DNA of 32,779 bases from a virus. This document shows positions 7,162 through 24,474 of the stretch, piece by piece (position 1 is the stretch's first letter; every line of letters starts with the position of its first letter). The notes under the pieces are model-generated. The model did not search any database. It saw only the letters and a program-made list of their open reading frames with translations, and was not told where the DNA came from. The position numbers and the translations under genes are program-made. Location: positions 1-32,779 of the IMG/VR virus record IMGVR_UViG_3300035158_000526. One strand, 5' to 3'.

Positions 7162-8091
7162 ATGAAAAAAGTTTTATTTCTGTTTTTTATTATTGCTTTT
7201 TTCATTGGATGTGCTACAGTTTCACAACAAGTTGAGCGAATTCTTCAGTCGACGTATAAACTAGTAGATGATCATGCGGTAACTATTGTTGTGAATTATT
7301 ATATGTCTGACGAAGAATATGAAAAGAGAATAGAAAAAATAAAAAATGACACTCTTGTTATAAGAAAAACAGAGGATGGTATGATGTATATCGTACCTCA
7401 AATTGTTTTTAAACTAAATGATTTTATTGAGCTTTCGTATAAACAGGTTATTGTTGTACCAACAAAACCTGGAGTAAATTCAAAAACTGGAGAACCGGTG
7501 AAGTGTATATCGTACATTGGTTCGGGAACAATTTTAAAACAAAACTATATTCTTTCAGTAAGACATTTATTTACACAAGACATAAATACATATGATAGTA
7601 TTGTTTGGGTTTTTAAACAAGGTCTCGATCATGCAGTCGAGGCTGATTTGGTTGCATTGAGTGATGGTATAGAATTTTGTGATGATTATGCTATTGCTCA
7701 TATGAAAGAAGATTTAGGGTTACCTGGATTAAAAATTGCAGAACCTGGATCGTTACAATGGGGAGATAAAGTAATTTCGACAGGGTCTCCTGGAGGATTA
7801 GCTTTTTTCCATCGTGTAGGGTTTGTAACGGAACTTCAATATTTTGTAAGAAGAGTTCCTGGCGATAATAATGCTTTGACTCTTTTACATTTTGAAGAAT
7901 TTAAATACTGGGTAGTTTATCCTGGGGGTCCAGGAGATTCAGGTGGGTCGGTTAAAAACCTCAAGGGAGAAATTGAAGCAGTTCTCTATTGTGGTGTAAA
8001 TGTATACGAAGAAGAATATATTTTCTGCAATCCTCTGGAAATGTTATGGTGTTTTCTAGAGTCACAGAATCTTGCGTGGCTTGGTAAGTGA
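7162..8091 (+). CDS. Predicted lipoprotein with a trypsin-like (chymotrypsin/HtrA-fold) serine protease domain
   Basis: 309 residues. The N-terminus MKKVLFLFFIIAFFIGCATV is a signal peptide ending in a lipobox-like FIGC, so the mature protein should be a lipid-anchored envelope protein. The protease triad is readable in family order: His about 135 in YILSVRHLF (after GSGTIL), Asp about 174 in FCDDYAIAHM, and Ser about 260 in PGGPGDSGGSV. Between them, GDKVISTGSPGG matches the fold's usual Gly-rich strand. A binding site GGAGAGGG precedes ATG 7162. A secreted phage protease could act in superinfection exclusion, receptor trimming or lysis; that is inference. Confidence 0.8.
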   Translation: MKKVLFLFFIIAFFIGCATVSQQVERILQSTYKLVDDHAVTIVVNYYMSDEEYEKRIEKIKNDTLVIRKTEDGMMYIVPQIVFKLNDFIELSYKQVIVVPTKPGVNSKTGEPVKCISYIGSGTILKQNYILSVRHLFTQDINTYDSIVWVFKQGLDHAVEADLVALSDGIEFCDDYAIAHMKEDLGLPGLKIAEPGSLQWGDKVISTGSPGGLAFFHRVGFVTELQYFVRRVPGDNNALTLLHFEEFKYWVVYPGGPGDSGGSVKNLKGEIEAVLYCGVNVYEEEYIFCNPLEMLWCFLESQNLAWLGK

Positions 8092-11471: not shown

Positions 11472-12894
11472 GGGAAAAATTCTTCTTGAATATCAACCGG
11501 TCGAAATTGAAGTTGTCGATGAACGTATAGTTGACGAAAAAACAGGTGATAAGGAATTAGACATTGATGTAATTTGGCAGAAGGCGGATAAGATTAATAG
11601 TAATAGCCGGAGATACCGGAAAAAAGTTTTGGAAAAAGAAATTGATCGTCTTCAAAAACCATTAAAAAATAAAGAAGTCTTTGGAGCTGCTTATCATCCC
11701 ATAGATGGAATTGGAGAAACAACTGACGTATCTCATCGTTGGAACAAAATTTGGATGGATAAAGAGGGAACTTGTAAAGGAAACTTAACAGTTCTCCCAA
11801 CATCTAAAGGAAAAGACATTCAAGTTATTGTGAAAGCAGGACGGATCGGTATGAGTTCTCGTGGCTTTGGAACAGTTACGAAGAAAGAAGAAGACATCGA
11901 TGGAAAGAAAATAAAATTCGACGATATCGATGATAATTTTAAATTGAAATCGCCCGGTGACTTTGTAATGTCACCTAGCGTCGAAGGTGCAGGAAACACT
12001 GAGATTGCTGAGGCGGTACAATTACTAGAATCCAAATTGAACGAAACTTTGGATTCACAAACTCAAATTGAGGAAGAAGAAATAATGAGCGACAAAATTA
12101 AAACAATTGAGGACTTGAAAAAGGAATATCCTGAGCTTACTCAAGAAATTGAAGAAAAAGCAAAAGAGGGATTATTTACCGAAGAGCAGGTCCAAGAGCG
12201 GGTTAATTCAGAACTAGAGACAAAGAAAAACGAGTGGAAAACTGAAATGGAACCTGAAGTCCAACAGAAAATTGATGACGCTACAGAGAAAGCAAAAGCT
12301 GAAGGTACTATTGAAGCTTATCGCGACGTGGTTAGTTATACGAGCGAAAAAGATGGTGTGATTCCTGAAGGCGAAAAGAAAAAGATCGAAAAAGAAGAAA
12401 ACAAAGAAGAAATCAATGCTCTTACTCAAGAGCGAGACGACTTGAAGAAAAAAGTCGAAGATTTCGAAAACGCCGAAAAGGAAAGAAAGGAAGCCGATAA
12501 GAAAGCTAAAGAAGGCGCTGAACTCCAAACAGCTCTGAGAACTAAATTGGACGAAGAGCTTGAGAAAGAAGAACACAAAGCGTACAAAGAACTAATTGAA
12601 AAAGAATTGACTGATGATGAAGGAAAAATCACAATCGATTCGGTTGAAGCTGTAGAAGAAGCTGTAAAATCTCAGAATGAGAAAATTGCGTCTCTAGCTG
12701 TCGAAGCCGAAAAGGCAAAAATTCTTGCTTCAGGTACCAAACCAAAAGGTGAGGTAGAAAACCCAGAAGGTGATGAGGACGAGAAGAAAGCCTTGATGGA
12801 CAAACAACGAGCATTTTATAAAGAAGCTAAAAATGCCGGACAATTCAAGGGAACTTTTGAAGATTACAAGAAAGAGTTTCCGATCGAGGAATAA
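11461..12894 (+). CDS. Prohead protease (S80/U9-like) fused to a scaffolding domain
   Basis: 477 residues. Residues 1-175 resemble T4 gp21-type prohead proteases: NSNSRRYRKKVL (about 46-57), AAYHP, DVSHRW (candidate catalytic His92), GNLTVLPTSKGK and GRIGMSSRGFG (catalytic Ser132/133). Residues 180-477 are extremely Glu/Lys-rich and predicted coiled coil with no cysteines, as in scaffolding cores. The enzyme would cut scaffold and capsid proteins during head maturation. It sits directly before the capsid gene. The fusion suggests that the protease is carried into the prohead by its own scaffold domain. Confidence 0.82.
   Translation: MKNKGKILLEYQPVEIEVVDERIVDEKTGDKELDIDVIWQKADKINSNSRRYRKKVLEKEIDRLQKPLKNKEVFGAAYHPIDGIGETTDVSHRWNKIWMDKEGTCKGNLTVLPTSKGKDIQVIVKAGRIGMSSRGFGTVTKKEEDIDGKKIKFDDIDDNFKLKSPGDFVMSPSVEGAGNTEIAEAVQLLESKLNETLDSQTQIEEEEIMSDKIKTIEDLKKEYPELTQEIEEKAKEGLFTEEQVQERVNSELETKKNEWKTEMEPEVQQKIDDATEKAKAEGTIEAYRDVVSYTSEKDGVIPEGEKKKIEKEENKEEINALTQERDDLKKKVEDFENAEKERKEADKKAKEGAELQTALRTKLDEELEKEEHKAYKELIEKELTDDEGKITIDSVEAVEEAVKSQNEKIASLAVEAEKAKILASGTKPKGEVENPEGDEDEKKALMDKQRAFYKEAKNAGQFKGTFEDYKKEFPIEE
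12085..12894 (+). CDS. Possible internal in-frame start giving a free scaffolding protein
   Basis: Within the protease-scaffold gene, ATG 12085 (MSDKIKTIEDLKKEYPEL) is in frame and lies exactly at the change from protease tail to coiled-coil scaffold. A purine-rich AGGAAG (12071-12076) precedes it, with a spacing slightly longer than ideal. Translation from here would give a 269-residue scaffold without protease, as lambda makes Nu3 from inside gene C. The site is seen; its use is inference. Confidence 0.5.
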   Translation: MSDKIKTIEDLKKEYPELTQEIEEKAKEGLFTEEQVQERVNSELETKKNEWKTEMEPEVQQKIDDATEKAKAEGTIEAYRDVVSYTSEKDGVIPEGEKKKIEKEENKEEINALTQERDDLKKKVEDFENAEKERKEADKKAKEGAELQTALRTKLDEELEKEEHKAYKELIEKELTDDEGKITIDSVEAVEEAVKSQNEKIASLAVEAEKAKILASGTKPKGEVENPEGDEDEKKALMDKQRAFYKEAKNAGQFKGTFEDYKKEFPIEE

Positions 12895-12904
12895 GGGACA
12901 GATA

Positions 12905-14143
12905 ATGTTACACGAAAGAGTAAGAAGTTATCTTGAAAATCAAAAGAAACGGTTGCTGAAGCGAGATGGAGCTTCAGAGGAAACTGATTGGTTAACTGAA
13001 AAAGAGGAAAACAAATATCATTTTGCTGTAAGAGATAGAAAGCTTGGGCGTCGGTATGGTTTGATGGAAATGTTGTACGACAACACAATTGAATGGATTA
13101 TGTCACAGGGTCGAGGAGCACTTCGGTTCGAGTTCTATGATCTTGAACAACCTGGAGTAATTTCTGAAGACACGACTACATCTAACATTGCTACGTTTAC
13201 AACTGCTCTACTTCCTGCTGTAAGACGGATTTATGCAAGCTTGATTTCTATGGATTTGGTTTCGGTTCAGCCACTAAGAGGTCCTTCGGGATATATTTAC
13301 TGGCTAGATCATGTTTACACTTCTGATTTTGGTACTGATGGAATTACTGCTGGAGATCGGCTTGACCAAGATGGAAAAGTTGATGAGTACACAGACAGTT
13401 CTGAGGCAGGGACAATTCGAGAGATCGAATTCAAATTGACAAAGAAACTGATTTCTACAGAAAGCAAAAAGGTGAAAGCTGATTGGACAATTGAAGCTGA
13501 GCAAGACTTGAGATCACAATGGGGTCTCGACTTGGAAGGCGAATTGGTTCCTGAACTTTCAAATCAGATCGTTCGTGAAGTTGACCGAAAAATCATTAAT
13601 GCTCTTACTGCTGGTGCTGGTGCTGGAAATGTTAACTGGAATAAAAACACAAGTGAGACTCTAACTAGCGAAAAAAATGCTTACTATCAAACTCTATACC
13701 ATGCTATTGCTGAAGCAAATAGTAATATTTTTCAGAAAAAATTCGTTAATGCTAACTGGCTATTGATGAATGGAAATACATATTACTACTTCCAGAGACT
13801 GGAACAGTTTAATGCTGATCCTCATGCTATTAATCAAGCTGCAACACTAGGTCGTCGGTATGTTGGAGATTTGGCTGGACTTTACAAAGTGTATATCGAT
13901 CCTTGGTACACTGATGATAAAATTCTTATGGGTGTCCGAGGAGATAGCTGGAAATATGCTGTGGGTTATTACTCACCATATATTCCTCTGTTCTTGAGTG
14001 ATAAATATATCGCTAATGACGATTTCACACAGTTCGTGAAGGGAGCCATGACTCGTTATGCTTATGGAGTACTTCCAGAAACAAGCACACAAGATCCTGT
14101 TAAAAATAACGGTTTGGCTACAATTACACTTACAAGCTCATAA
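12905..14143 (+). CDS. Major capsid protein, T4 gp23-like HK97 fold
   Basis: 412 residues from ATG 12905 (AAGGGACAG upstream); an upstream frame extension into the scaffold gene is rejected. Signature segments of gp23-type capsids occur in order: ATFTTALLPAVRRIYASLIS, DLVSVQPLRGPSGYIYWLD, a variable loop with DGITAGDRLDQD, KVKADWTIEAEQDLRSQWGL plus LVPELSNQIVREVDRKI, and a C-terminal half with VYIDPWYTDDKILMGVRGDS and YYSPYIPLFL. It follows the protease-scaffold gene and is closed by a strong terminator, as expected for a highly expressed structural gene. Confidence 0.88.
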   Translation: MLHERVRSYLENQKKRLLKRDGASEETDWLTEKEENKYHFAVRDRKLGRRYGLMEMLYDNTIEWIMSQGRGALRFEFYDLEQPGVISEDTTTSNIATFTTALLPAVRRIYASLISMDLVSVQPLRGPSGYIYWLDHVYTSDFGTDGITAGDRLDQDGKVDEYTDSSEAGTIREIEFKLTKKLISTESKKVKADWTIEAEQDLRSQWGLDLEGELVPELSNQIVREVDRKIINALTAGAGAGNVNWNKNTSETLTSEKNAYYQTLYHAIAEANSNIFQKKFVNANWLLMNGNTYYYFQRLEQFNADPHAINQAATLGRRYVGDLAGLYKVYIDPWYTDDKILMGVRGDSWKYAVGYYSPYIPLFLSDKYIANDDFTQFVKGAMTRYAYGVLPETSTQDPVKNNGLATITLTSS

Positions 14144-14157
14144 TGAGTAACCGAATG

Positions 14158-14198
14158 ATGGGGAGCGATTCTGTCGCTCCCCATCTATTCTTATTTTA
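14158..14198 (+). terminator. Rho-independent terminator after the capsid gene
   Basis: A perfect 11-bp stem ATGGGGAGCGA/TCGCTCCCCAT (14158-14168 with 14174-14184) with loop TTCTG, followed by a T-rich tail CTATTCTTATTTTA running to the next ATG. It lies 14 bases after the capsid stop and separates high capsid expression from the downstream glycan genes, probably letting some read-through pass. Confidence 0.8.
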
Positions 14199-15221
14199 AT
14201 GGAACGATTGTTTAATCTCGCTGTGAATACAAGTGGGATTCAGCAATCATTTTTTACAAAGAAAGGAAGAAGATTTCGTGCTTATCCAGAATCTATTGTT
14301 GATGTTTCACAACTTCGAGAGGGAGATCGAGGCATTCTTAGTCCTGTTGATAGCTTTATTGGTGAGTTAAAAAAACGGAATTTAAATTCTTTCTACATAG
14401 AAAGAACATATAATTTTGGAGATGTTTTGTTATTGATACCAGCAATTCGAGAATTAAAAAGAAAAGGATATAATCCTATTTTGCGAACTCGATCTGCATA
14501 TTCACCTATTTTAAAGAGATTGAAAATTGATTATACGATGTGTCATTCTACAATAACACCACAAGGTTTTGGGATTGTTTTGGATAATACAATCGAAAGA
14601 GATCACGAGGAAGATCGTTTAAGAGATAAACACAGAGTGGATTTGTATTTTAATATTTTTGGAATTGAGGATGGGATAGTTGATTGGAGTTGTGATTTAG
14701 ATGATTTTGATTTCTTTGACGAATTTATGGAAAAACGATATTGTGTTTTTCAAGCTCAAGGTTCGACTCCAAAGAAAATGTTATACGATACAACGGCTCG
14801 ATATATTATTGAGAGATTAAACGATATGGGAGTCAAAGTGGCATATATTGGAGAAGAGATTTTTATTCCCGATAATGAAACGAATCATGGCTATTTTATG
14901 GACTTAAATTATGTTGAATTATTCTCTTTAATCGGTCATGCAGAATTTCTAATAACCATGGATTCAGCTCCACTTTGGATAAGCCATTTTACAAAAACTC
15001 CACTTATTGCACTGTTGGGACCTAGCCGTCCATCGGAAAGAGTCACAAAACATCCATTATATCCACAGAAAGCTTTTGGGCTGGAATTAAATAAAGAAAT
15101 AAATTGTGAGAGTTGTTTTGAATGTTCTAAGGAATGTGGAGATTTGATTTCTTGTTTACATATAAACGATAAACGGATATTTGAATTAATAAAGAAAAAG
15201 GTGGACCAGTTATGGCTTTAA
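14199..15221 (+). CDS. GT9-like (heptosyltransferase-fold) glycosyltransferase with a phage-type N-terminal extension
   Basis: 340 residues. From about residue 65 the protein follows the GT9/GT-B pattern: TYNFGDVLLLIPAIRELKRKGY (N-lobe loop with Gly-Asp), YCVFQAQGSTPKKM at the second-lobe entry, and LFSLIGHAEFLITMDSAP followed by TKTPLIALLGPSRPSERV, the usual nucleotide-sugar binding region. Near the C-terminus a cysteine-rich CESCFECSKECGDLISC is unusual. The first ~55 residues (KKGRRFRAYPESIVDVSQL) resemble short phage head-associated proteins rather than a transferase. No good Shine-Dalgarno precedes ATG 14199; the terminator lies just upstream. It overlaps the next gene by 10 bases. Confidence 0.75.
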   Translation: MERLFNLAVNTSGIQQSFFTKKGRRFRAYPESIVDVSQLREGDRGILSPVDSFIGELKKRNLNSFYIERTYNFGDVLLLIPAIRELKRKGYNPILRTRSAYSPILKRLKIDYTMCHSTITPQGFGIVLDNTIERDHEEDRLRDKHRVDLYFNIFGIEDGIVDWSCDLDDFDFFDEFMEKRYCVFQAQGSTPKKMLYDTTARYIIERLNDMGVKVAYIGEEIFIPDNETNHGYFMDLNYVELFSLIGHAEFLITMDSAPLWISHFTKTPLIALLGPSRPSERVTKHPLYPQKAFGLELNKEINCESCFECSKECGDLISCLHINDKRIFELIKKKVDQLWL

Positions 15222-17920
15222 AATATTTTAAGCTTCCACATGGTGAATTGGTTGTTAATGCTGGAGACGTTACGGAATCGATTCAAGATAGTTCTGGAAA
15301 TTTTATCCGTTTAGCTCCTGGGAAAAGTCATTTCTTTGGGACTTGTGGATTAGATTTATATAGCTATTTTATGAATCAAAAATTCTGGGATTCTAAATTA
15401 GCTGTCGATAAAGTGATCGAAGAAAAAGGAGAAATGAATCTTCTTATGCGGTCAGAGAAAGTAGATAAATTTGGTGATCAGATTATGTTTACAATTATTC
15501 CAGCTGCATATAAAGAGACTTACGAAGATAAAGTAAATATAGATATTTTAATTCCTGAATGTGTAAAAGAGATATGGGAAAATAATACTCATATAAGAAA
15601 TGTTTTCTATAATGAAAATGAAATAAAAGAAGAATACGATATTGATTATAGTGTCAATAATTTAGAATTAAAATTTGACCGGAAGGATAAGAAAAGTTGT
15701 TCAGATATTATTTTAGAAAACATTCAACTTCATTTAGTAAATAAAGCACCTATATTCATTTTGTCAGAAGAAGAAAAACAGTGGGCGAAAAAAGAATTAA
15801 AAGATTTCGAGCGAACTAAAATTGGTATCCAAATAAAGTCGGCAGTTGCGTCAAGGACGTATCCTTATATGAAGGAGCTTGGAGAATTACTTCACATGAA
15901 AGGATATGACGTTATTATACTAGATAGTATAAAACCAAATGGTAAATTTCAATACAGTTTCCGTAAGATGGCAGCAATAGCAAATGAATGTGATTTGATT
16001 GTTACTCCTGATTCGGCAATTTTTCATTTGGCTGGTGCATTAAAAAAGAGAACGGTGGGGATTTTTGGTTATACGGATGGGAAGATTTATTCTGAGAATT
16101 ATGAGAAAACTTCTTATGTTCAAGCTAAATGTCCACATGGAAAACCTCCTTGCTGGTGGAGCATCAATTGTCTTCCGGGAAAAACTCACCAAGAAAAAAC
16201 GGACCAAGGATATGTTGATTGTTTAACTCAGTTGACACCAGAAAATATTTTAGGGAAAATTGAAGAACAGTTTAATGAGCCAAAAAAAGTTCTGGTTGTA
16301 ATGCTGACATATAATCTTCTAATGATGACGAAGAAAGCTATCGCTTCAATTCGAAGTTTTCATGATTATGAACTATTCGTTGTTGATAATGAAAGTACTG
16401 ATGGTACACAAGAGTGGTTAAAGGAAAATGGGATCGAATTTGTTTCTAAAAAAACTAGTGTTGCGGCGGCTCAAAACATTGGTATACAAAAATTTTTAGA
16501 AGGACAATATGATTATTTTATGCTACTGAATAACGATGTTGTTCTTAGATTCGATACAATCGAAAGGTTGATAGAAGATTCGAAAAGAACTGGAGCATGG
16601 GCAGTTATGTCGTCTGAAGTTCCAGGAGCCCAACCGTGGACTATTGATTATACTAAATCAATGAGCCAAAGGGTGGAAGAAATAATTGATATTCCAACAG
16701 GTTCTTATTCATGTACTTTATTCACTCGAGAATGTATTGAAAAGACTGGATTTTTTGACGAACGTTATGCACCACGTTATATTGAGGATAATGATTATAC
16801 TTTGAGAATGAGATTAGCGGGTGGAAAATTTTATAAATCTGAAGCAGCTATTTATTGGCATTATCTTGGAGCTGTTGTTAAATTAAATAAAAAAGAGAAA
16901 GAAAGTGGAAATGAATATTGGGATCGAAATATCAAATTGTTTATTGAAAAATTTGGAATCCATCCCCACGACCATCAGGATTTAAATAAGCTGGGATTGG
17001 AATGGAAAAGAAATGTTAATGTTGATGAAATAGAAAAAGCATTAAAGGATCGAGGGAGTGTAAAAATTTTAGTCGAAAGACGCATGGGGGGGTATGGAGA
17101 CATTTTATTTACGACTGTAATTGCAAGAGAATTAAAGAAGAAATTTGGTAATAAAGTAACGATTATTTATAGAGTTCCTTCGGATTTTCATATGCTATTG
17201 GATAATAATCCCAATATCGATATGATAGGAGAATACGGCGTTAGAATACATCCAGACTTCAAAATCGATCTTACAGACCTCGAGTTTCGGGTAGAACTCC
17301 AGGAGATGCAGCAAAATGGTGGGATTCTCAGCGCTAGAACGGAAATCTACCTTAATACGATAGGTCTTAATGGGGTTAATAACCTCAAACCAGATTACTT
17401 TCTTACTGATTCTGAGAGAGCTTGGGCGGAAGAACAATGGAAACATACTGATAAATTTCGGATCGCTTGGGCAATGAAAGGGAGCAACAAATTAAAACAA
17501 TGGCCTTATATGAGAAAACTATGGGATATGTTCAAAGGAATGGATATTGTTTCGTATGTTATATGGGGCTCAGATGGAGTGTCGGAATTTTCTTTCCGAG
17601 AATCTGCAGCTATTGTAGCAACGGCTAACTTAGTGATTTCTCCTGATTCAGGAATTTCTAATTTAGCTGGTGCTCTTGATGTGCCGGTTATTACAATTTT
17701 TAGCAATAGGAACAAAGAAAATTTTGAGAAGATGTTTGATACCATGGTTGGAATCCAAGGACATTGTCCTTTTCTTGAGAAAGATTATTGCGACTTTTTC
17801 TGCCCATGTTTAGGAGATGGCCCACATCGATCGAAAGAAGAAAAACATATTCCTGAATGTTTAAATAATCTCCAGCCAGAAGAAGTTTTTAAAGAGGCTA
17901 AGAAAATAATCAATGGATAA
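15212..17920 (+). CDS. Tri-domain glycosyltransferase: GT9-like, GT2, GT9-like
   Basis: 902 residues. After an N-terminal beta segment (1-60), a first GT9-like unit spans about 75-350 (KVDKFGDQIMF; then CDLIVTPDSAIFHLAGALKK and VGIFGYTDG). A GT2 GT-A domain spans about 358-600: VLVVMLTYN, VDNESTDGTQEWL, YFMLLNNDVVLR (the NND metal/nucleotide site), and YIEDNDYTLRMRLAG (the ED base region). A second GT9 unit spans about 615-900: RMGGYGDILFTTVIARELKK, then ANLVISPDSGISNLAGALDV. Both GT9 units end with a Cys-rich patch (CPHGKPPCWWSINC and CPFLEKDYCDFFCPC) and a similar 'CL..L.PE.' tail, suggesting internal duplication. It likely adds several sugars in sequence to one acceptor. It overlaps both neighbours. 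Confidence 0.85.
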   Translation: MALKYFKLPHGELVVNAGDVTESIQDSSGNFIRLAPGKSHFFGTCGLDLYSYFMNQKFWDSKLAVDKVIEEKGEMNLLMRSEKVDKFGDQIMFTIIPAAYKETYEDKVNIDILIPECVKEIWENNTHIRNVFYNENEIKEEYDIDYSVNNLELKFDRKDKKSCSDIILENIQLHLVNKAPIFILSEEEKQWAKKELKDFERTKIGIQIKSAVASRTYPYMKELGELLHMKGYDVIILDSIKPNGKFQYSFRKMAAIANECDLIVTPDSAIFHLAGALKKRTVGIFGYTDGKIYSENYEKTSYVQAKCPHGKPPCWWSINCLPGKTHQEKTDQGYVDCLTQLTPENILGKIEEQFNEPKKVLVVMLTYNLLMMTKKAIASIRSFHDYELFVVDNESTDGTQEWLKENGIEFVSKKTSVAAAQNIGIQKFLEGQYDYFMLLNNDVVLRFDTIERLIEDSKRTGAWAVMSSEVPGAQPWTIDYTKSMSQRVEEIIDIPTGSYSCTLFTRECIEKTGFFDERYAPRYIEDNDYTLRMRLAGGKFYKSEAAIYWHYLGAVVKLNKKEKESGNEYWDRNIKLFIEKFGIHPHDHQDLNKLGLEWKRNVNVDEIEKALKDRGSVKILVERRMGGYGDILFTTVIARELKKKFGNKVTIIYRVPSDFHMLLDNNPNIDMIGEYGVRIHPDFKIDLTDLEFRVELQEMQQNGGILSARTEIYLNTIGLNGVNNLKPDYFLTDSERAWAEEQWKHTDKFRIAWAMKGSNKLKQWPYMRKLWDMFKGMDIVSYVIWGSDGVSEFSFRESAAIVATANLVISPDSGISNLAGALDVPVITIFSNRNKENFEKMFDTMVGIQGHCPFLEKDYCDFFCPCLGDGPHRSKEEKHIPECLNNLQPEEVFKEAKKIING

Positions 17921-18752
17921 GATATACGAGAAACTTGATTACCCTCAGACACTATTTGTGGAGCCTACAAATTTCTGTAATATACGATGTAGCATTTGTC
18001 CATACGAAAAGATGACGCGAAGAAAAGGAAATATGAGTTGGGGAACGTTGAGGGTTATAATTGAGGAATCGAAAGGACAATCAAAAGTTTGTTATTTCAT
18101 GGGGTTTGGAGAACCACTATTACATCCTGAAATAATTCCTATGATTGAATATATCGAGTCTGAAGGGATTGCTGTTTATCTGAGCACAAATTCAATGTTG
18201 CTGGACGAGGAAACAATCCATAAACTTTTTGATACAGAACTAACTCGATTGTATTTGCCTCTGTCATCTTTGAACAAAGAGACATATGAGAAAATAAGAT
18301 GCAGAGCTGATTTTAAAACTGTCATAAAGAATATTGAAAATTGTATCAGAATAAGAAAGATTCGAAGATTTGTAAAAACTAAAGTATTTATAGTCCCAAT
18401 TGCTATGAAAGAAACTATTGACGAATTTGACGAGATTGCTGAAAAATATCGTCCGTTTCTTGAGGGAATTGGCGGAGTAGAATTAAAAAGTTATTGTACA
18501 TATGCTGGAGCGGTTGAAGACAAATCGGTTGCATGTCATAAAACTCCTCCCGGATTTTGCACAATGATGAATTACGGAATAAATATTTATTGGAATGGAG
18601 ACGTATCGATCTGTTGTAATGATTATGATTGTTTCACTCTTGTGGGAAATGTTCGCGATAAAAATATTAAAGAAATTTGGGATTCTGTCGAATACGAAAA
18701 TCACAGGTTCATGGGAAATGATTTTTGTAAGAGATGTTTAAATGAAAATTGA
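17913..18752 (+). CDS. Radical SAM enzyme with a SPASM-like C-terminal cluster
   Basis: 279 residues. The [4Fe-4S]-SAM motif C-x3-C-x2-C is at Cys22, Cys26 and Cys29 (FCNIRCSICP), followed by the GGEP-like GFGEPLLHPE and TNSMLL strands. The C-terminal third has eight cysteines including GFCTMM, WNGDVSICCNDYDC and FCKRCLNEN with GNVRDKNIKEIW between, the layout of SPASM/twitch domains that bind extra iron-sulfur clusters. Such enzymes modify peptides, sugars or other small molecules; anaerobic conditions are implied for activity. Here an unusual sugar or peptide modification is possible. The start overlaps the GT gene and the end overlaps the sulfotransferase by 11 bases. Confidence 0.85.
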   Translation: MDKIYEKLDYPQTLFVEPTNFCNIRCSICPYEKMTRRKGNMSWGTLRVIIEESKGQSKVCYFMGFGEPLLHPEIIPMIEYIESEGIAVYLSTNSMLLDEETIHKLFDTELTRLYLPLSSLNKETYEKIRCRADFKTVIKNIENCIRIRKIRRFVKTKVFIVPIAMKETIDEFDEIAEKYRPFLEGIGGVELKSYCTYAGAVEDKSVACHKTPPGFCTMMNYGINIYWNGDVSICCNDYDCFTLVGNVRDKNIKEIWDSVEYENHRFMGNDFCKRCLNEN

Positions 18753-19437
18753 TAATTGGATTGTAGCTTATCCTCGATCGGGGAGCACATGGCTCCGATA
18801 TTTATTTGCGTGTATTGCTAAACCCAATGACGATTTAACATATAACGACATGAATCGAATAATGCCCGATCTTCATTCTCATAGATTTTGGAAATTTAAA
18901 GCGTGGGAAGAATTGGATTTTGTGATTTTTAAATCTCATTTTAAAGAAGAAAAATGTGAAGGTCGGAAAGTGGTTTATTTATACAGAGATGGAAGAGACA
19001 CTGCGTTGTCTTGTTATTATTATTATAACCACGAAGGGACAGATAAAATATTTAGCAAATATCTTGTTGAAGATTTTATTTCTGGAAAGATGAGATTTGG
19101 AGGTTGGAAAACTCATGTTGAAAGATGGCTTCAGAAAACATTTATTGGAATATATTTTCTTAAGTACGAAGAGTTATATTCTGAGACTTTCAGTCATTTA
19201 AAAAATATTGTATCGTTTTTTCAGATTGAAACTACTGACGAAATTATTCAACAAGCAATAGAAAAATCTGAGCTTTCGAAGATGAGAAAAATAGGAGCAG
19301 CTGAAGGCTATCATCCAAAGTTAGTTGGGTTATCGGGTAAACCTGGAGGGTGGAAAGAAAAATTCAGCATGGAAGATTTGAAAAATTTTTGGAATTATGC
19401 TGGTGATCTAATGGAGAATTTGGGATATTGTAAATGA
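18742..19437 (+). CDS. PAPS-dependent sulfotransferase
   Basis: 231 residues with the three hallmarks of cytosolic-type sulfotransferases: the 5'-phosphosulfate loop YPRSGSTWLR (about 10-18), the 3'-phosphate site YLYRDGRDTALS (about 76-88), and near the C-terminus GKPGGWKEKFS, the equivalent of the family's G-x-x-G-x-WK motif. It would transfer sulfate from PAPS to a hydroxyl, most likely on a sugar in this context. Compared with typical 280-300 residue members it is short, but no motif is missing. It overlaps the radical SAM gene and the methyltransferase (ATGA-type, 4 bases). Confidence 0.88.
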   Translation: MKIDNWIVAYPRSGSTWLRYLFACIAKPNDDLTYNDMNRIMPDLHSHRFWKFKAWEELDFVIFKSHFKEEKCEGRKVVYLYRDGRDTALSCYYYYNHEGTDKIFSKYLVEDFISGKMRFGGWKTHVERWLQKTFIGIYFLKYEELYSETFSHLKNIVSFFQIETTDEIIQQAIEKSELSKMRKIGAAEGYHPKLVGLSGKPGGWKEKFSMEDLKNFWNYAGDLMENLGYCK

Positions 19438-20084
19438 AAAAACGAACAACAGCTCATTTATATAATGAATGGTATTTTGCTAACAAATACGAAAAGTGGT
19501 TTAAAGACGGACTGAACATGGATAATAAAACAATTAAAGTAGAGACGGAAAAGAAATTGAATTTTATATCTCATTATATGCCAGATGTAAAATCTATTCT
19601 TGTTCCTGGTTGTTCGTTTGGAATGCTTGTTTTTTGGCTCAATCAAAATGATTATGAAGCTGAAGGAATTGATGTTTCTGATTTTGCTTTAGAAAAAGCT
19701 CCTGAGGAATCAAGAAAATATCTTAGAAAAATGAGTGTTACGGATATGAATGAGTATTCTGATAATAAATTTGATCTGATTGCAGCGTTTGATATTTTTG
19801 AACATTTGTATTATGAAGAAATTTTAAAAGCTTGCAAGGAAGCTAGTCGCGTAGCAAGTAAATATATTTTAATTCGTGTTCCTTCTCCGAAGTATGATGC
19901 TGAACCTGGAATCGCTGATTATAGTAGTTTTAATAAAGTAGATGGTGGACATGTTTCAGTTTATCCATATGATTTTTGGGTGCGACGATTTGTTGAGGTT
20001 GGCAAATATGATTTTTGGTTTGCTTCTATATGGAACAGACCAAGAGAATCGGAGACGTGGATAGCTTTTCGGAGAAAAAAATGA
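19434..20084 (+). CDS. Class I SAM-dependent methyltransferase
   Basis: 216 residues. Rossmann-fold methyltransferase motifs: motif I VKSILVPGCSFGMLVFWL (about 52-68; the usual G-x-G-x-G is reduced to GCSFG), an acidic strand end AEGIDVSDFAL, FDLIAAFDIFEHLYYEE (motif IV region with the FEHL of Methyltransf_11/23-type enzymes), and KYILIRVPSP. Likely O-methylates a sugar, given its neighbours; the substrate cannot be read from sequence. Coupled to both flanking genes by 4-base overlaps. Confidence 0.82.
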   Translation: MKKRTTAHLYNEWYFANKYEKWFKDGLNMDNKTIKVETEKKLNFISHYMPDVKSILVPGCSFGMLVFWLNQNDYEAEGIDVSDFALEKAPEESRKYLRKMSVTDMNEYSDNKFDLIAAFDIFEHLYYEEILKACKEASRVASKYILIRVPSPKYDAEPGIADYSSFNKVDGGHVSVYPYDFWVRRFVEVGKYDFWFASIWNRPRESETWIAFRRKK

Positions 20085-20674
20085 CTCATCCAACTGAATG
20101 TGGGTTTACGAAGATAGGAATCAAAAAAGTTGAAGTAGAACTTGTGAAGTTTAAACAATTTATGGACGATATTGGAGTTGAGTTTTTTCTAACAGCTGGG
20201 GTTCTTTTGGGAATTGTTCGCGATGGAGAATTAATAAAAGTTGATAAAGATTTTGATTTTGGTGTAATGAAAGAATCGGATGTTGAAAAGATTCGAATTG
20301 AAGCTGAAAAACGAAAGTATTATGATGAAATTCATTATGGCCTATGTGTTCCTAAAGGAACACTCTTTTGGTTAAAGAAATATATTGATAATTATGTTTT
20401 GCCTATTGAAATACAAGTTCATTACGTAAAAGATAATTATACTTATTATAATCGACATTTGGAAGATTGGAAGTTTTCATATGGAAGATTAGTTTGGAAA
20501 AGAGAACTTTTTGAGAATCTTGCTGAAATTAATTTTAAAGGGATCAAATTGAATATTCCCAATCCGGCTGAAGATTTTCTTGTAACACATTATGGAGAAG
20601 ATTGGAAAACACCCAAGGAATATTCAGATTGGCGTTATCATTGTAAAAATATATATGAAGGTTTTTGGGTTTGA
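20081..20674 (+). CDS. LicD/fukutin-family phosphosugar or phosphocholine transferase
   Basis: 197 residues from ATG 20081, which overlaps the methyltransferase stop; the longer frame upstream is rejected. Family motifs: FFLTAGVLLGIVRDGELIKV followed by DKDFDFG (nucleotidyltransferase-fold metal-binding acids), VLPIEIQVHY, and NIPNPAEDFLVTHYGEDWKTP near the C-terminus. LicD proteins attach phosphocholine or related CDP-activated groups to surface glycans. A cytidylyltransferase two genes downstream could supply its CDP donor. Confidence 0.82.
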   Translation: MTHPTECGFTKIGIKKVEVELVKFKQFMDDIGVEFFLTAGVLLGIVRDGELIKVDKDFDFGVMKESDVEKIRIEAEKRKYYDEIHYGLCVPKGTLFWLKKYIDNYVLPIEIQVHYVKDNYTYYNRHLEDWKFSYGRLVWKRELFENLAEINFKGIKLNIPNPAEDFLVTHYGEDWKTPKEYSDWRYHCKNIYEGFWV

Positions 20675-21165
20675 ACAAAATAGTAATAAATCCCAAAAAG
20701 GATTTAATTTTTGATTTGAAAGTTAGAGAAATGTGTAAACAGTGTAAGCGGTATGGGAAGAAAGCTTCTTGCCCTCCTTATGTTGAAACGGTTGAATACT
20801 ATAGTAAATTACTTCCAACTTATCAGAATGGAATAATTTACTATAAGATTTTTCCGATTCTTGAAGATGACGATCCCATGGAAGTTGGGAAAGAAAGTAG
20901 TTTAGAAATTTGGAGAAAGATAACGTCAGAGCGCACGAAATTGTTTAATCAAGGACATTATCTTATTATAGGATTTGGAGCAGGTTCTTGTAAAATTTGT
21001 GATGAGTGTCAGTTTCCTTGTCATACACCAAGTAGAGCATTAATGCCTCTTGAGGCTACTGGAATGGATGTTGTTAAAGTAATGAAGCAGTTTAATGTGG
21101 AAGTAAAATTTCCTTTTGAACAAGCAAAAACTCTTTGTCGAATAGGAGCAATTTTTTATGACTAA
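20671..21165 (+). CDS. DUF2284 cysteine-rich predicted metal-binding protein
   Basis: 164 residues from TTG 20671, overlapping the LicD stop (TTGA), with GAAGG about 8 bases upstream; another in-frame TTG lies at 20665. Two cysteine groups, MCKQCKRYGKKASCPPYV near the N-terminus and AGSCKICDECQFPCHTPSRA in the second half, plus the conserved MPLEATGMDV, mark DUF2284. The family is proposed to bind an iron-sulfur cluster and its function is unknown. Next to a radical SAM gene, a role as electron carrier is possible. Confidence 0.8.
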   Translation: MNKIVINPKKDLIFDLKVREMCKQCKRYGKKASCPPYVETVEYYSKLLPTYQNGIIYYKIFPILEDDDPMEVGKESSLEIWRKITSERTKLFNQGHYLIIGFGAGSCKICDECQFPCHTPSRALMPLEATGMDVVKVMKQFNVEVKFPFEQAKTLCRIGAIFYD

Positions 21166-21580
21166 AAAATACAGAGTTTTCGTCCCTGGTGCTTGGGACT
21201 TATTTCATATTGGTCATGTGAGACTATTGAAGCGAGCTAAAGAATTTGCGGACACTTTAATTGTTGGAATCGATTCTGATGTATCAATAGAAAAAAGAAA
21301 AGGACGACCCCCTGTTGTAAATCTAGAAAATAGAGCGTCGATTCTTGATGCTATTAGTTATGTGGATAAAATCCACATTGGACATGAGAATGGGGTAATA
21401 AACCCAGAGTTATTAAAAGAATTAGAGATAGATATTTTAGTTTTGGGAAGTGATTGGTGCGGAAAACCAATGCCCGGATTAGACGAAGCAAAAAGATTCG
21501 TTATGGTTTTATACTTCCCTTATACTGAAGGAATTAGTACAACAGAAATTATGAAAAAAGTGCAGGAAAAACATAAATGA
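21158..21580 (+). CDS. TagD/HldE-type cytidylyl(adenylyl)transferase
   Basis: 140 residues covering the whole single-domain family: GAWDLFHIGHVRLLKRA with the HxGH nucleotide site (His17, His20), LIVGIDSD, a Lys/Arg loop RKGRPPVV, and YTEGISTTEI, the equivalent of RTEGISTT. The domain is that of glycerol-3-phosphate cytidylyltransferase and of the heptose-1-phosphate adenylyltransferase part of HldE. CDP-alcohol production would suit LicD; ADP-heptose would suit the GT9 enzymes. Sequence alone does not settle it. Overlaps both neighbours. Confidence 0.86.
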   Translation: MTKKYRVFVPGAWDLFHIGHVRLLKRAKEFADTLIVGIDSDVSIEKRKGRPPVVNLENRASILDAISYVDKIHIGHENGVINPELLKELEIDILVLGSDWCGKPMPGLDEAKRFVMVLYFPYTEGISTTEIMKKVQEKHK

Positions 21581-22509
21581 ATAAGGAAGTTTTAATAACT
21601 GGTGGAGCTGGATTTGTTGGTTCCGTTTTAACTCAGTTATTATTGAGTGAAGGTTATAAGGTTAAAGTACTAGATAGTTTAGTGTATGGAGTAGAACCTT
21701 TATTAGGATTTTTCTCTAACCCAAATTTTGAATTTATTTTAGGAGATATTCGAGACCCTAAAAAAGTAATGGAAATTTCTCGCGACTGTGGGGCGATAAT
21801 TCATTTGGCTGCAATCGTAGGTTATCCTGCTTGCAAGAAAGATAAAGTAAAAGCAATATCCGTTAACGCTGAAGGAACTCAAGTGATTGCTGATGCAACT
21901 CCTCAAGATATTCCTTTTATATTTGCTTCGACAGGATCTTGTTATGGAAATTTGGAAGAAATTTGTACTGAAGAATCTCTTTTGAAACCTTTAACGATTT
22001 ATGGTGAGTCTAAAGAAAAAGCGGAAGAGTTTGTTAAGAAAAGAAAGAATTTTACTATTTATCGATTTGCTACTGGATATGGAGTTTCGTTAAGATTAAG
22101 ATTGGATTTAATGATAAATGATTTTTGCTATAAAGCTGTAAGAGAAAAAAATCTTATCGTCTATGAGAAACATTTTCAGAGAACATTTATTCATGTAATG
22201 GATATGGCAAGATCATTTATGTTTGGAATAGAAAATTTCGAAAAAATGAATGGTGAAATTTATAACGTTGGTTCAGAAAAGATGAATCTGACAAAGAAAG
22301 AGATTGCTGAATTAATTCAAAAGAAAACAAAATATTATTTACATTATGCTGATTTTGGGAAAGACGAAGACAAAAGAGATTATGAAGTAAGTTATAAAAA
22401 AATTCGCGAATTGGGATTTAAACCTCGAGTTTCTTTAAACGAAGGAATCGATCAATTGATAAAGTTATTTCAAGTCTTCGAGGTTAAGAATGAATATTCA
22501 AATGTTTAA
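21577..22509 (+). CDS. NAD-dependent nucleotide-sugar epimerase/dehydratase (extended SDR)
   Basis: 310 residues. Rossmann signature TGGAGFVGS (about 8-16), GDIRDP, HLAAIVGYPAC (extended-SDR strand 4), FASTGSCYG, the catalytic YGESK (Tyr-x3-Lys), RFATGYG and FIHVMDMARSF. These belong to the GalE/RmlB-like extended short-chain dehydrogenases acting on NDP-sugars. The subfamily with HLAAIVGxPAC occurs in many surface-polysaccharide clusters, with substrates mostly unassigned. Its ATG overlaps the cytidylyltransferase stop. Confidence 0.87.
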   Translation: MNKEVLITGGAGFVGSVLTQLLLSEGYKVKVLDSLVYGVEPLLGFFSNPNFEFILGDIRDPKKVMEISRDCGAIIHLAAIVGYPACKKDKVKAISVNAEGTQVIADATPQDIPFIFASTGSCYGNLEEICTEESLLKPLTIYGESKEKAEEFVKKRKNFTIYRFATGYGVSLRLRLDLMINDFCYKAVREKNLIVYEKHFQRTFIHVMDMARSFMFGIENFEKMNGEIYNVGSEKMNLTKKEIAELIQKKTKYYLHYADFGKDEDKRDYEVSYKKIRELGFKPRVSLNEGIDQLIKLFQVFEVKNEYSNV

Positions 22510-22511
22510 AA

Positions 22512-22706
22512 GTGGTAAAACCGAGAAAATTCAAAGAGTTCCAGACGTTGATTCCTCTTGTTGGCCAACGTCCACCGACATGTAGGATTTGGATAGCTGA
22601 TGATGTATGTATTGAATGCAAATGTAAGCTATCGTGGTTTAATAGATTAATGATTAAAATATTTTTAGGATGGGAATACGAAAAAATAAATAAGGAGAAA
22701 AAATGA
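22512..22706 (+). CDS. Small cysteine-containing hypothetical protein (start uncertain)
   Basis: 64 residues from GTG 22512. The sequence TCRIWIADDVCIECKCKLSW has a C-x2-C-x-C group and is followed by a hydrophobic FNRLMIKIFLGWEY. No Shine-Dalgarno is visible before the GTG, and a competing 31-codon frame starts at ATG 22489. It fills the only non-enzymatic gap in the island and ends overlapping the next ATG, which supports it modestly. Function unknown. Confidence 0.45.
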   Translation: MVKPRKFKEFQTLIPLVGQRPPTCRIWIADDVCIECKCKLSWFNRLMIKIFLGWEYEKINKEKK

Positions 22707-23647
22707 GATTAAAAGACAAAAGAGTTTTATTAACTGGGGGTTCAGGATTTCTTGGGCGCATTGTTAAAAGAAAGCTTGAGCAGAAAGGAGCTAAAGTGTT
22801 TGCTCCACGGTCATATGAAATGAATTTGCTTGATTTTCAAAATGTTCAAAATTATTTCGATGGTATTCAACCTGAACTTGTTATTCATAGTGCAGCACTT
22901 TATGGAGGGTTGGGAATTAATAAAAATTCTCCTGCAGATATTTTTTATGAAAATACAGTAATGTATGCTAATATTCTAGAATGTGCATCATTGTGGTCTG
23001 ATAAAATTGTTTGTGTTGGGACGGCATGTTCATATCCTGACGGGTTGGATATTTTAAAAGAAGAAGATCTTTGGAAAGGCCCTGTCCATAAATCAGTTCA
23101 GAATTATGGTGGTGTAAAAAAAATGATGCAGATTGGATTGGAATCTTATCATACTCAATATGGCATGGATGGGATTCATGTTCTTTTAGCTAATCTTTAT
23201 GGACCATGGGATTCGTATAATCCAGAACGTTCTCACGTTGTTGCAGCTTTAATTCGAAAATTTGTTGAGGCTTATTGGGGTGGAGAAGATGTGACATGTT
23301 GGGGAACAGGCAAACCAATTCGAGAATTTCTTTATGTCGAAGATGCAGCTGAAGGAATTATTCGGGCGATAGAAGAATATGACGATATTGAACCATTAAA
23401 TATTGGAACTGGAATTGGAACATCGATAAAAGAATTAACAGAATTAATTGCAAAAATTACGGGAATGACCGAAGATAAAATCCATTGGGATTCAGATAAA
23501 CCAGATGGTCAGTATAAAAAAATATTTGACGTTTCTAAAATGAAAGAGGTTTTAAACTGGGAACCTCAAACTTCATTAAAAGAAGGATTAATAGAAACTA
23601 TTGAATGGTTTAAAACAAATTATGATGAAGCAATAAAGCGCTGGTAA
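22703..23647 (+). CDS. GDP-L-fucose synthase-like NAD(P)-dependent epimerase/reductase
   Basis: 314 residues. TGGSGFLGRIV (cofactor), HSAALYGGLGINKNSP, VGTACSYPDG, YGGVKK (catalytic Tyr-x3-Lys), NLYGPWDSYNPERSHVVAAL, and WGTGKPIREFLYVEDAA track GDP-L-fucose synthase (GMER/WcaG) along its length. The residues equivalent to E. coli Cys109 and His179, used in epimerisation, are present (TACSYP and SHVVAAL); the Ser107 equivalent is Thr. A partner GDP-mannose 4,6-dehydratase is not in this window. A strong AAGGAG precedes ATG 22703. Confidence 0.85.
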   Translation: MRLKDKRVLLTGGSGFLGRIVKRKLEQKGAKVFAPRSYEMNLLDFQNVQNYFDGIQPELVIHSAALYGGLGINKNSPADIFYENTVMYANILECASLWSDKIVCVGTACSYPDGLDILKEEDLWKGPVHKSVQNYGGVKKMMQIGLESYHTQYGMDGIHVLLANLYGPWDSYNPERSHVVAALIRKFVEAYWGGEDVTCWGTGKPIREFLYVEDAAEGIIRAIEEYDDIEPLNIGTGIGTSIKELTELIAKITGMTEDKIHWDSDKPDGQYKKIFDVSKMKEVLNWEPQTSLKEGLIETIEWFKTNYDEAIKRW

Positions 23648-23648
23648 A

Positions 23649-23822
23649 ATGCGTTTAGAAAAAACTAAAGTTCAAAATAAAAAGGACTATGATATTAGTG
23701 TGAAAGATGCATTCGGAAACGAACATGTTCTTTTCCCACAGGAGGAAAAAGAGATAATCGTTCTTGTATCATCGGGGAAGAAGAATGGACCAAAGTCAAT
23801 TAATCGACGGAGTTCGAGCTGA
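23649..23822 (+). CDS. Small hypothetical phage protein in the connector module
   Basis: 57 residues starting MRLEKTKVQNKKDYDISVKD, with DAFGNEHVLFPQEEKEIIVL typical of very short phage proteins found between capsid and connector genes. It begins just after the reductase stop and its 3' end overlaps the start of the connector gene by 38 bases. No clear Shine-Dalgarno. It may be the first gene of the resumed structural operon. Confidence 0.5.
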   Translation: MRLEKTKVQNKKDYDISVKDAFGNEHVLFPQEEKEIIVLVSSGKKNGPKSINRRSSS

Positions 23823-24474
23823 ATGTGGGAAATTAGAAAATACGGTCGAATTAGAAAATGACGACATAATTCGTTATTCTGGTTGGATATTAGACAGGAT
23901 TGCCGAAAGAATTACAGTTAAATCAATACGATATATAACATCGATAAAAGACGAACGAGAATACGATGTTGCATCAACAACTTTGAGAATACAAAAAGTG
24001 TTTCGTTGGGATGGAATTGATGATACTCTTTTGAGTGATTTGGGAACACATAAAGAATCAACAAATATTACTGATGCGACGTCTTATTATAATTTTCCTT
24101 CGCTTTGGAAAATCGAGATGGCGAGAAAAATTCGAGGCCTTCCTAGAATAAAATATGATTTCGATCCAATAAATCGAAAGCTTCATATCGATCCAGCTCC
24201 TTCAGAAGCTGGAAAAAAATATTGGTATGTTTCGGTAGAAAAAACACAGTGGACATTGGATAAAGTTCCAACGGATTTTGAAGAACTGGTGATTATTGGA
24301 ACGACTTTTAGAGCTTTAGAACAAGTGGCTCTTAAAAGAACTGAACAAGGAGGAATCCATAGGGAAGGCGGAACTGTCGATTATCCAGCTTCAGAACTAA
24401 AGAGATTTGTAGATTCTAAGAAAGACGAATTCTACGATCAGCTTCGAATCAAAGCTATGATTTATAGTAGATAA
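23785..24474 (+). CDS. Head-tail connector/adaptor-like protein
   Basis: 229 residues from ATG 23785 (GGGGAAG just upstream; the TTG start 21 bases earlier is less likely). The N-terminal helices (DIIRYSGWILDRIAERI), the beta strands and the late helix PTDFEELVIIGTTFRALEQVAL fit gp6/gp15-type adaptor proteins that bind the portal ring. The assignment rests on its size and its place between the capsid and the HK97 gp10-like gene more than on a signature motif. Confidence 0.6.
   Translation: MDQSQLIDGVRAECGKLENTVELENDDIIRYSGWILDRIAERITVKSIRYITSIKDEREYDVASTTLRIQKVFRWDGIDDTLLSDLGTHKESTNITDATSYYNFPSLWKIEMARKIRGLPRIKYDFDPINRKLHIDPAPSEAGKKYWYVSVEKTQWTLDKVPTDFEELVIIGTTFRALEQVALKRTEQGGIHREGGTVDYPASELKRFVDSKKDEFYDQLRIKAMIYSR

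Follow-up and report, generated by a model that had tools for sequence, protein, structure and literature searches.

Virion glycosylation is already known from mycobacteriophages and chloroviruses. The known cases among phages are few, and acceptor sites are difficult to predict. In the Cluster O mycobacteriophages, exemplified by Corndog, a methyltransferase gene and three glycosyltransferase (GT) genes lie between the portal and protease genes, and their products have been proposed to modify the capsid (PMC4351075). A review reports, citing Freeman et al. 2023, that mycobacteriophage capsid and tail tube subunits carry C-terminal glycans (PMC12619734). The locus described here resembles these systems in the presence of methyltransferase and glycosyltransferase genes in the head module, in capsid subunits as the proposed target, and in the C-terminal position of the glycans. 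It differs in comprising some ten enzymes behind the capsid gene rather than four genes between portal and protease, and in having a GT9-family, TibC-like first GT, sulfation and phospho-transfer enzymes, N-terminal tags, and an exchangeable cassette. Chlorovirus PBCV-1 also has virus-encoded, organelle-independent capsid glycosylation and a protein with three transferase domains (A111/114R). However, it is a eukaryotic virus with N-linked glycans, an unrelated capsid fold, and other GT families (PMC7826918).

Counterparts of individual enzymes are found in bacteria. The autotransporter heptosyltransferase TibC transfers heptose straight onto protein Ser residues in the cytoplasm, with Asp110 as the base and Trp305 contacting the sugar. 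Four Cys residues of TibC hold iron in an "iron finger," an N-terminal β-barrel contributes to the dimer interface, and the assembled enzyme is a dodecameric ring with a β-hairpin thumb (PMC4358343). In Campylobacter jejuni, Cj1427 oxidizes GDP-heptose at C4, and the reductase family that includes Cj1428 serves the following steps (PMC10680097). In the Pnt/Lic phosphonate and phosphocholine pathways, cytidylyl activation is followed by transfer to a glycan (PMC6697681).

The window analyzed here is the whole 32,779-base stretch of an uncultured virus record that is classed as linear and is probably a fragment of a genome. The original prediction described a glycan-synthesis island at 14199-23647, between capsid and connector genes. 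ORF calls, family matches, and a motif check confirmed its ten named enzymes as open genes on the + strand with catalytic and other key motifs intact, and the families and motifs support the glycan-synthesis interpretation. On the 5' side lie an S77 prohead protease gene and then the gene of a 436-residue Gp23-type major capsid protein (12833-14143, + strand; PF07068, 2.6e-52), which bears out the capsid half of the predicted location. On the 3' side, head-completion genes are followed by tail genes as far as the tape measure protein. The first gene past the island, HCP1 (23764-24474, + strand), forms a conserved flank that was aligned with the L002 contig and found in relatives. HCP1, which stands in the place of the predicted connector, itself matches no family in PHROG or Pfam and is called a head-completion gene by position. 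The capsid ORF begins 62 bases inside the protease gene (12833-12894), and judging from relatives the true start may be farther downstream. Elsewhere in the window are five tRNA genes (Met, Ala, Asp, Trp, and Gly, at 405, 880, 4889, 5002, and 9895); none was found in the examined stretches of L003, L004, L005, and L012. A protein with a trypsin-like peptidase domain (7162-8091), which has a relative in L005, lies in a region free of phage family matches.

Neighboring island genes overlap by 4-11 bases, as predicted, with the exception of the LicD gene. The longest LicD ORF, from a TTG at 20015, overlaps the upstream gene by 70 bases. The more likely start is an ATG at 20081, with which the overlap would shrink to the 4 bases ATGA. 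Two small ORFs had been missed: one of 64 aa with a GTG start (22512-22706, + strand; ORF call) and one of 57 aa (23649-23822, + strand), which is part of the end of the island and has a counterpart at the same position in 7 relatives. Between the capsid gene and the first transferase gene, terminator scanning and folding located a strong hairpin with a T-rich tail (14153-14190, + strand). Its folding z score is -7.75 in the window, and the relatives have a median of -3.8, with 25 of 31 below -3. The hairpin is probably an attenuator or mRNA 3' end, as would be expected if the capsid gene were expressed far above the enzymes. The GC content of the island (33.3%) is only about 4 points lower than that of the head (37.1%) and tail (37.4%) genes and shows no sharp break, and on composition a recent foreign insertion was rejected.

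A search with the capsid protein alone returned 14 distinct loci. In 11 of these, the next gene after the capsid gene encodes a relative of GT9a, the first island transferase; the other three (L015, L016, and L018) have capsid proteins of ∼30% identity and no transferase. Loci found by other queries carry GT9a at the same position in nearly all cases, and transferase queries added contigs with the order capsid, GT9a, usually a GT9-GT2-GT9 fusion, a variable cassette, a small protein, and HCP1. The repetition of this layout in dozens of independent contigs from different samples rules out both chance and an assembly insert. The other refuting outcome open to sequence comparison, an island at unrelated loci in related phages, is likewise excluded. 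The one exception to the order is L040, in which GT9a is displaced ∼7.5 kb upstream of the capsid gene. In L040 (9060-9908) and L079 (9989-11032), an ORF that by eye alone looks homing-endonuclease-like lies between the capsid gene and the GT fusion. The minimal form of the locus, L180, consists of capsid, tagged GT9a, stand-alone tag, and HCP1. The arrangement had been called uncommon. It is the rule inside this uncultured lineage, but a search of 50,697 phage records turned up no GT9a homologue, and the fusion had only partial GT2 matches among sequenced phages. A scan of cellular genomes found GT9a only in L097 and L098, contigs binned into metagenome-assembled genomes. These bins, a Candidatus Methylomirabilis (L097) and a Bacteroidetes (L098), are the only hints of a host; the contigs belong to the same phage lineage and may be mis-binned.

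GT9a (14199-15221, + strand; 340 aa) consists of an N-terminal tag (residues ∼1-46) and a TibC-like GT9 domain. The structural model (pLDDT 91) has its closest fold matches in TibC (PDB 4rb4; Z-score 20.9 over 282 residues, aligned from residue 26) and WaaF (PDB 1psw; Z-score 20.3), followed by a Veillonella GT9 (Z-score 20.0) and WaaC (Z-score 18.6). TibC and the LPS heptosyltransferases are therefore effectively tied as the nearest structures to the model. Asp75, Trp260, and four Cys residues (303/306/313/319) are invariant in 18 relatives. Trp260 aligns with TibC Trp305, where the LPS heptosyltransferases have His. The four Cys include a CX2C motif at the matching end of the protein, with shorter spacing than in TibC (339/342/358/370). 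GT9a shares with TibC the GT9-like GT-B fold, the catalytic Asp, the Trp, and an N-terminal β domain, and its four Cys may correspond to the iron-holding cluster of TibC. The two differ at the adenine-contacting Arg286 of TibC, for which the phage profile has another residue at the aligned position. The GT9a model is of a monomer. Furthermore, the neighbor of TibC is an autotransporter, whereas no autotransporter substrate gene lies beside GT9a, whose neighbors are the capsid and island genes. Phage GTs are also known to hypermodify DNA (review PMC12619734), and the island transferases could in principle modify phage DNA bases. We consider this very improbable, given that the island showed no gene for preparing bases, such as one for a pyrimidine hydroxymethylase, that the best fold matches are heptosyltransferases, and that the genes are in the head module.

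The C terminus of the capsid protein varies with the presence of the transferase. In a first comparison, every GT9a-positive capsid protein ended in Ser, and three GT-negative ones ended in Leu or Ala. The idea was then checked by a wider capsid search and a later GT9 search. In a count that includes L180, a terminal Ser is present in 35 of 36 distinct GT9-positive capsid proteins, the remaining one ending in Thr, and in none of 35 distinct capsid proteins from GT-negative relatives. The five GT-positive contigs found after the idea was formed (L108, L122, L125, L126, and L180) comprise four Ser and one Thr. GT-positive capsid proteins extend about two residues farther past a shared ATVT strand. 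The constancy of the terminal Ser, which in the window is Ser436 (codon 14138-14140, + strand), is about that of the 14 best conserved of 371 capsid columns, and position -2 is free to be Ser, Gln, Thr, Ala, Gly, or Leu.

GT presence requires at most three changes on the capsid tree, and one when strongly supported branches are counted. The association is clustered, so few independent events lie behind it and shared descent may account for the Ser pattern; an independent-contrast test of Ser against GT was without power. Chance together with shared descent could explain part of the pattern if the virion were glycosylated on another protein, such as a small head protein or a tail protein, or if the Ser were unmodified and served assembly. 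The stand-alone tag-like proteins that close the island in many relatives would be candidates for such an acceptor. However, a hydroxyl residue was kept at the capsid end in all five later-found contigs. The last residue of tail tube homologues is Lys or Arg, and among the protein families of the window a conserved C-terminal Ser is confined to the capsid protein (background 12%). We therefore judge another acceptor, or a structural Ser, to be improbable, and favor the capsid C terminus as the acceptor.

Both GT9a and the fusion start with an N-terminal segment of ∼40 residues, the tag, with the pattern N-x(5)-Q-[IV]-[FY]-Y-D-x(4)-P-[IV]-x-[LV]-x-P-G-E. The domain corresponds to no family in Pfam or PHROG. 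Profile comparison related the tags to the stand-alone small proteins at the end of the island, with E 9e-11 for the fusion tags (probability 97; column shuffles ≤1.4) and E 9e-8 for the GT9a tags. The comparison of GT9a tags with fusion tags was set aside after one shuffled control gave a high outlier twice. Six GT-negative relatives (L127, L128, L131, L133, L135, and L137) were left out of a tag profile, which then detected a small protein in each of them (E 6e-6 to 0.011), all between the capsid gene and HCP1 and 4 of the 6 directly behind the capsid gene. The occurrence of tag homologues alone at this position makes it plausible, from sequence comparison, that the ancestral order was capsid, small protein, HCP1. 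The 57-residue protein of the window has weak profile similarity to the tags (E ∼1e-3) and is probably a divergent stand-alone copy.

In the model of GT9a, the tag forms four strands that are predicted with confidence. A model of the stand-alone tag (pLDDT 88, pTM 0.42) had no significant viral match and PDB Z-scores of at most 4.1, a result that does not establish a new fold. The TibC alignment starts at residue 26 of the GT9a model, inside the tag, and the β-barrel of TibC forms part of its dimer interface (PMC4358343). The tag may accordingly be an oligomerization domain of the TibC kind, with targeting provided from elsewhere. This deserves serious weight but appears unlikely to us, since the same domain stands alone between capsid and connector genes in relatives that have no GT. 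A tether derived from a head protein is the reading that we prefer.

The two GT9/GT2 transferases of the original prediction are in fact GT9a, a single GT9, and a 902-residue tag-GT9-GT2-GT9 fusion (15212-17920, + strand; two PF01075 matches and PF00535, with motifs and an alignment of 12 relatives). The following genes, all on the + strand, encode a radical SAM/SPASM enzyme (17913-18752; PF04055, PF13186; CxxxCxxC at residue 22), a sulfotransferase with intact PAPS-binding motifs (18742-19437; PF00685, 1.8e-25), a SAM-dependent methyltransferase (19434-20084; PF08241 and related families), a LicD-family phosphotransferase (20081-20674; PF04991, 32.4 bits against a cut-off of 22.6; LLGxxR and DKDFD motifs), a Cys-rich DUF2284 protein (20665-21165; PF10050, 1.8e-30), a cytidylyltransferase-like enzyme (CTPT; 21158-21580; PF01467; HxGH and TEGISTT motifs), and two short-chain dehydrogenase/reductases, SDR1 (21577-22509) and SDR2 (22703-23647).

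SDR1 matches PDB 6vo6 over its full length (residues 1-307) with 282 bits and has SDR motifs; the next best solved protein scores 100 bits. We take 6vo6 to be the Cj1427 structure of Huddleston et al. 2020, a paper that PMC10680097 cites. SDR2 belongs to the GDP-fucose-synthase family of C4-reductases (PDB 1bsv, 191 bits; NF047922, 234 bits, below the cut-off of 500), the family of Cj1428. In contrast to the Campylobacter system, no C3/C5 epimerase gene is present beside SDR1 and SDR2, and the product would be used by a phage. Heptose chemistry in both the transferase and the SDRs is a consistent sign, with a mismatch in donor: Cj1427-type enzymes use GDP-heptose and GT9 enzymes usually ADP-heptose. 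The window holds no complete heptose-nucleotide pathway, and the earlier steps must be supplied by the host or by an unseen part of the genome. The best solved relative of the cytidylyltransferase is the ethanolamine-phosphate cytidylyltransferase 3elb (7e-25), and glycerol-phosphate cytidylyltransferases are also near; its gene shares a block with that of LicD, which fits a phospho-substituent. The pair recalls the Pnt/Lic pathways, except that the cytidylyltransferases here are of HxGH type rather than LicC/PntC type.

The prediction had left open whether the glycan is built on the capsid or on the host envelope. The main functional rival is alteration of the host envelope during infection, which might exclude superinfecting phages or shield the cell. 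In its favor, the enzyme families of the island are all frequent in the surface-glycan clusters of bacteria, LicD and cytidylyltransferases act in the decoration of surface polysaccharides, and Cj1427-type SDRs serve Campylobacter capsule synthesis (PMC10680097). However, the flippase, polymerase, or lipid-carrier transferase genes of a Wzx/Wzy- or ABC-type exported polysaccharide locus are absent from the island, and none of its proteins has a clear transmembrane stretch; a product built on a cytoplasmic protein is thus more likely than an exported one. Nor does the envelope reading predict the shift of the capsid C terminus with GT presence, and GT9a is a gene of the late head module that varies together with the capsid gene (below). 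We regard modification of the envelope as rather improbable. The terminal Ser, the tags, the co-variation, and the absence of export genes from the island favor the capsid.

When pairwise distances are set against capsid protein distances, GT9a (r = 0.745, n = 27) correlates about as well as the protease (r = 0.833) and HCP1 (r = 0.756), and in this respect behaves as a head-module gene. The GT fusion gives r = 0.32, and SDR1 (-0.05), SDR2 (0.11), CTPT (-0.04), and GT2 proteins span -0.05 to 0.11, in small samples of 5-7 genomes per cargo gene. The methyltransferase and radical SAM enzyme do track the capsid protein (six genomes each), and most of the cargo appears exchangeable. By these sequence comparisons GT9a is a fixed core behind the capsid gene, and the decorating genes are swapped among relatives, a pattern in which the cassette would act as a capsid serotype locus. 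Across relatives the cassettes include methyltransferases, sulfotransferases, GT2 and sulfatase-fold enzymes, radical SAM enzymes, SDRs, LicD with cytidylyltransferase, asparagine-synthase-like and DUF362 proteins, and a Gfo/Idh oxidoreductase with a hexapeptide acyltransferase. The block LicD-DUF2284-CTPT-SDR1-SDR2 is common to the window, L033, and L087.

The capsid-adjacent island of L021 (= L044; 11370-14665) encodes a PEP mutase (EDK...NS motif), a TPP decarboxylase divided between two ORFs that overlap, a class-V aminotransferase, and a cytidylyltransferase. By analogy with described pathway logic (PMC6697681), this set is likely a pathway of 2-aminoethylphosphonate synthesis and activation in a phage, and it extends the resemblance to the Pnt/Lic systems. 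Two further features of the islands may be recorded. The asparagine-synthase-like and DUF362 proteins of L005 (16653-18813) possibly perform amide or iron-sulfur chemistry on the glycan. An 84-residue protein matching the C-terminal half of DUF4254 is encoded repeatedly (L078, 18259-18513; also L087, L043, L045, L044, L032, and L038), in several of these islands just ahead of the closing small protein.

Taken together, we consider it probable that the island is a capsid-glycosylation locus of the following kind. GT9a would be tethered to the capsid protein or the prohead by its N-terminal head-protein domain and, acting as a TibC-like cytoplasmic protein glycosyltransferase, would place the first sugar, probably heptose, on capsid Ser436. 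The tagged GT9-GT2-GT9 fusion would then add as many as three further sugars. A modified heptose nucleotide would come from SDR1 and SDR2 and a phospho-substituent from the cytidylyltransferase together with LicD, and capping of the chain would fall to the sulfotransferase and the methyltransferase, with putative tailoring roles for the radical SAM and DUF2284 proteins. From gene content, synteny, motifs, tag homology, the Ser association, and the co-variation of GT9a with the capsid protein, all of them sequence-level results, we infer the acceptor residue, the order of transfer, the identity of the sugar, the function of the tether, and the biological benefit. More tentatively, and at slightly less than even odds, we suggest a dedicated system of C-terminal Ser O-glycosylation, in which a head-protein domain was duplicated and fused to GTs as a tether, the capsid protein gained a Ser-ended tail, and heptose, sulfate, methyl, phospho, and phosphono cassettes were swapped to give capsid serotypes.

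In the part of the literature that we covered, no description was found of a tagged TibC-like core, a C-terminal Ser rule, or a cassette this large behind a capsid gene. What is new here is an acceptor rule, a head-domain tether, and a swappable cassette, all putative in chemical terms. Comparative genomics in this case predicts a single acceptor position, the Ser at the capsid C terminus, together with one initiating enzyme and one tether domain. If the proposal is correct, an uncultured phage lineage would possess exchangeable, bacterial-style sugar coats on its capsids, some of them sulfated or carrying phosphonate, with consequences for the encounter of particle and host and for survival in the environment. 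The locus would also represent a compact system for putting glycans on a protein C terminus.
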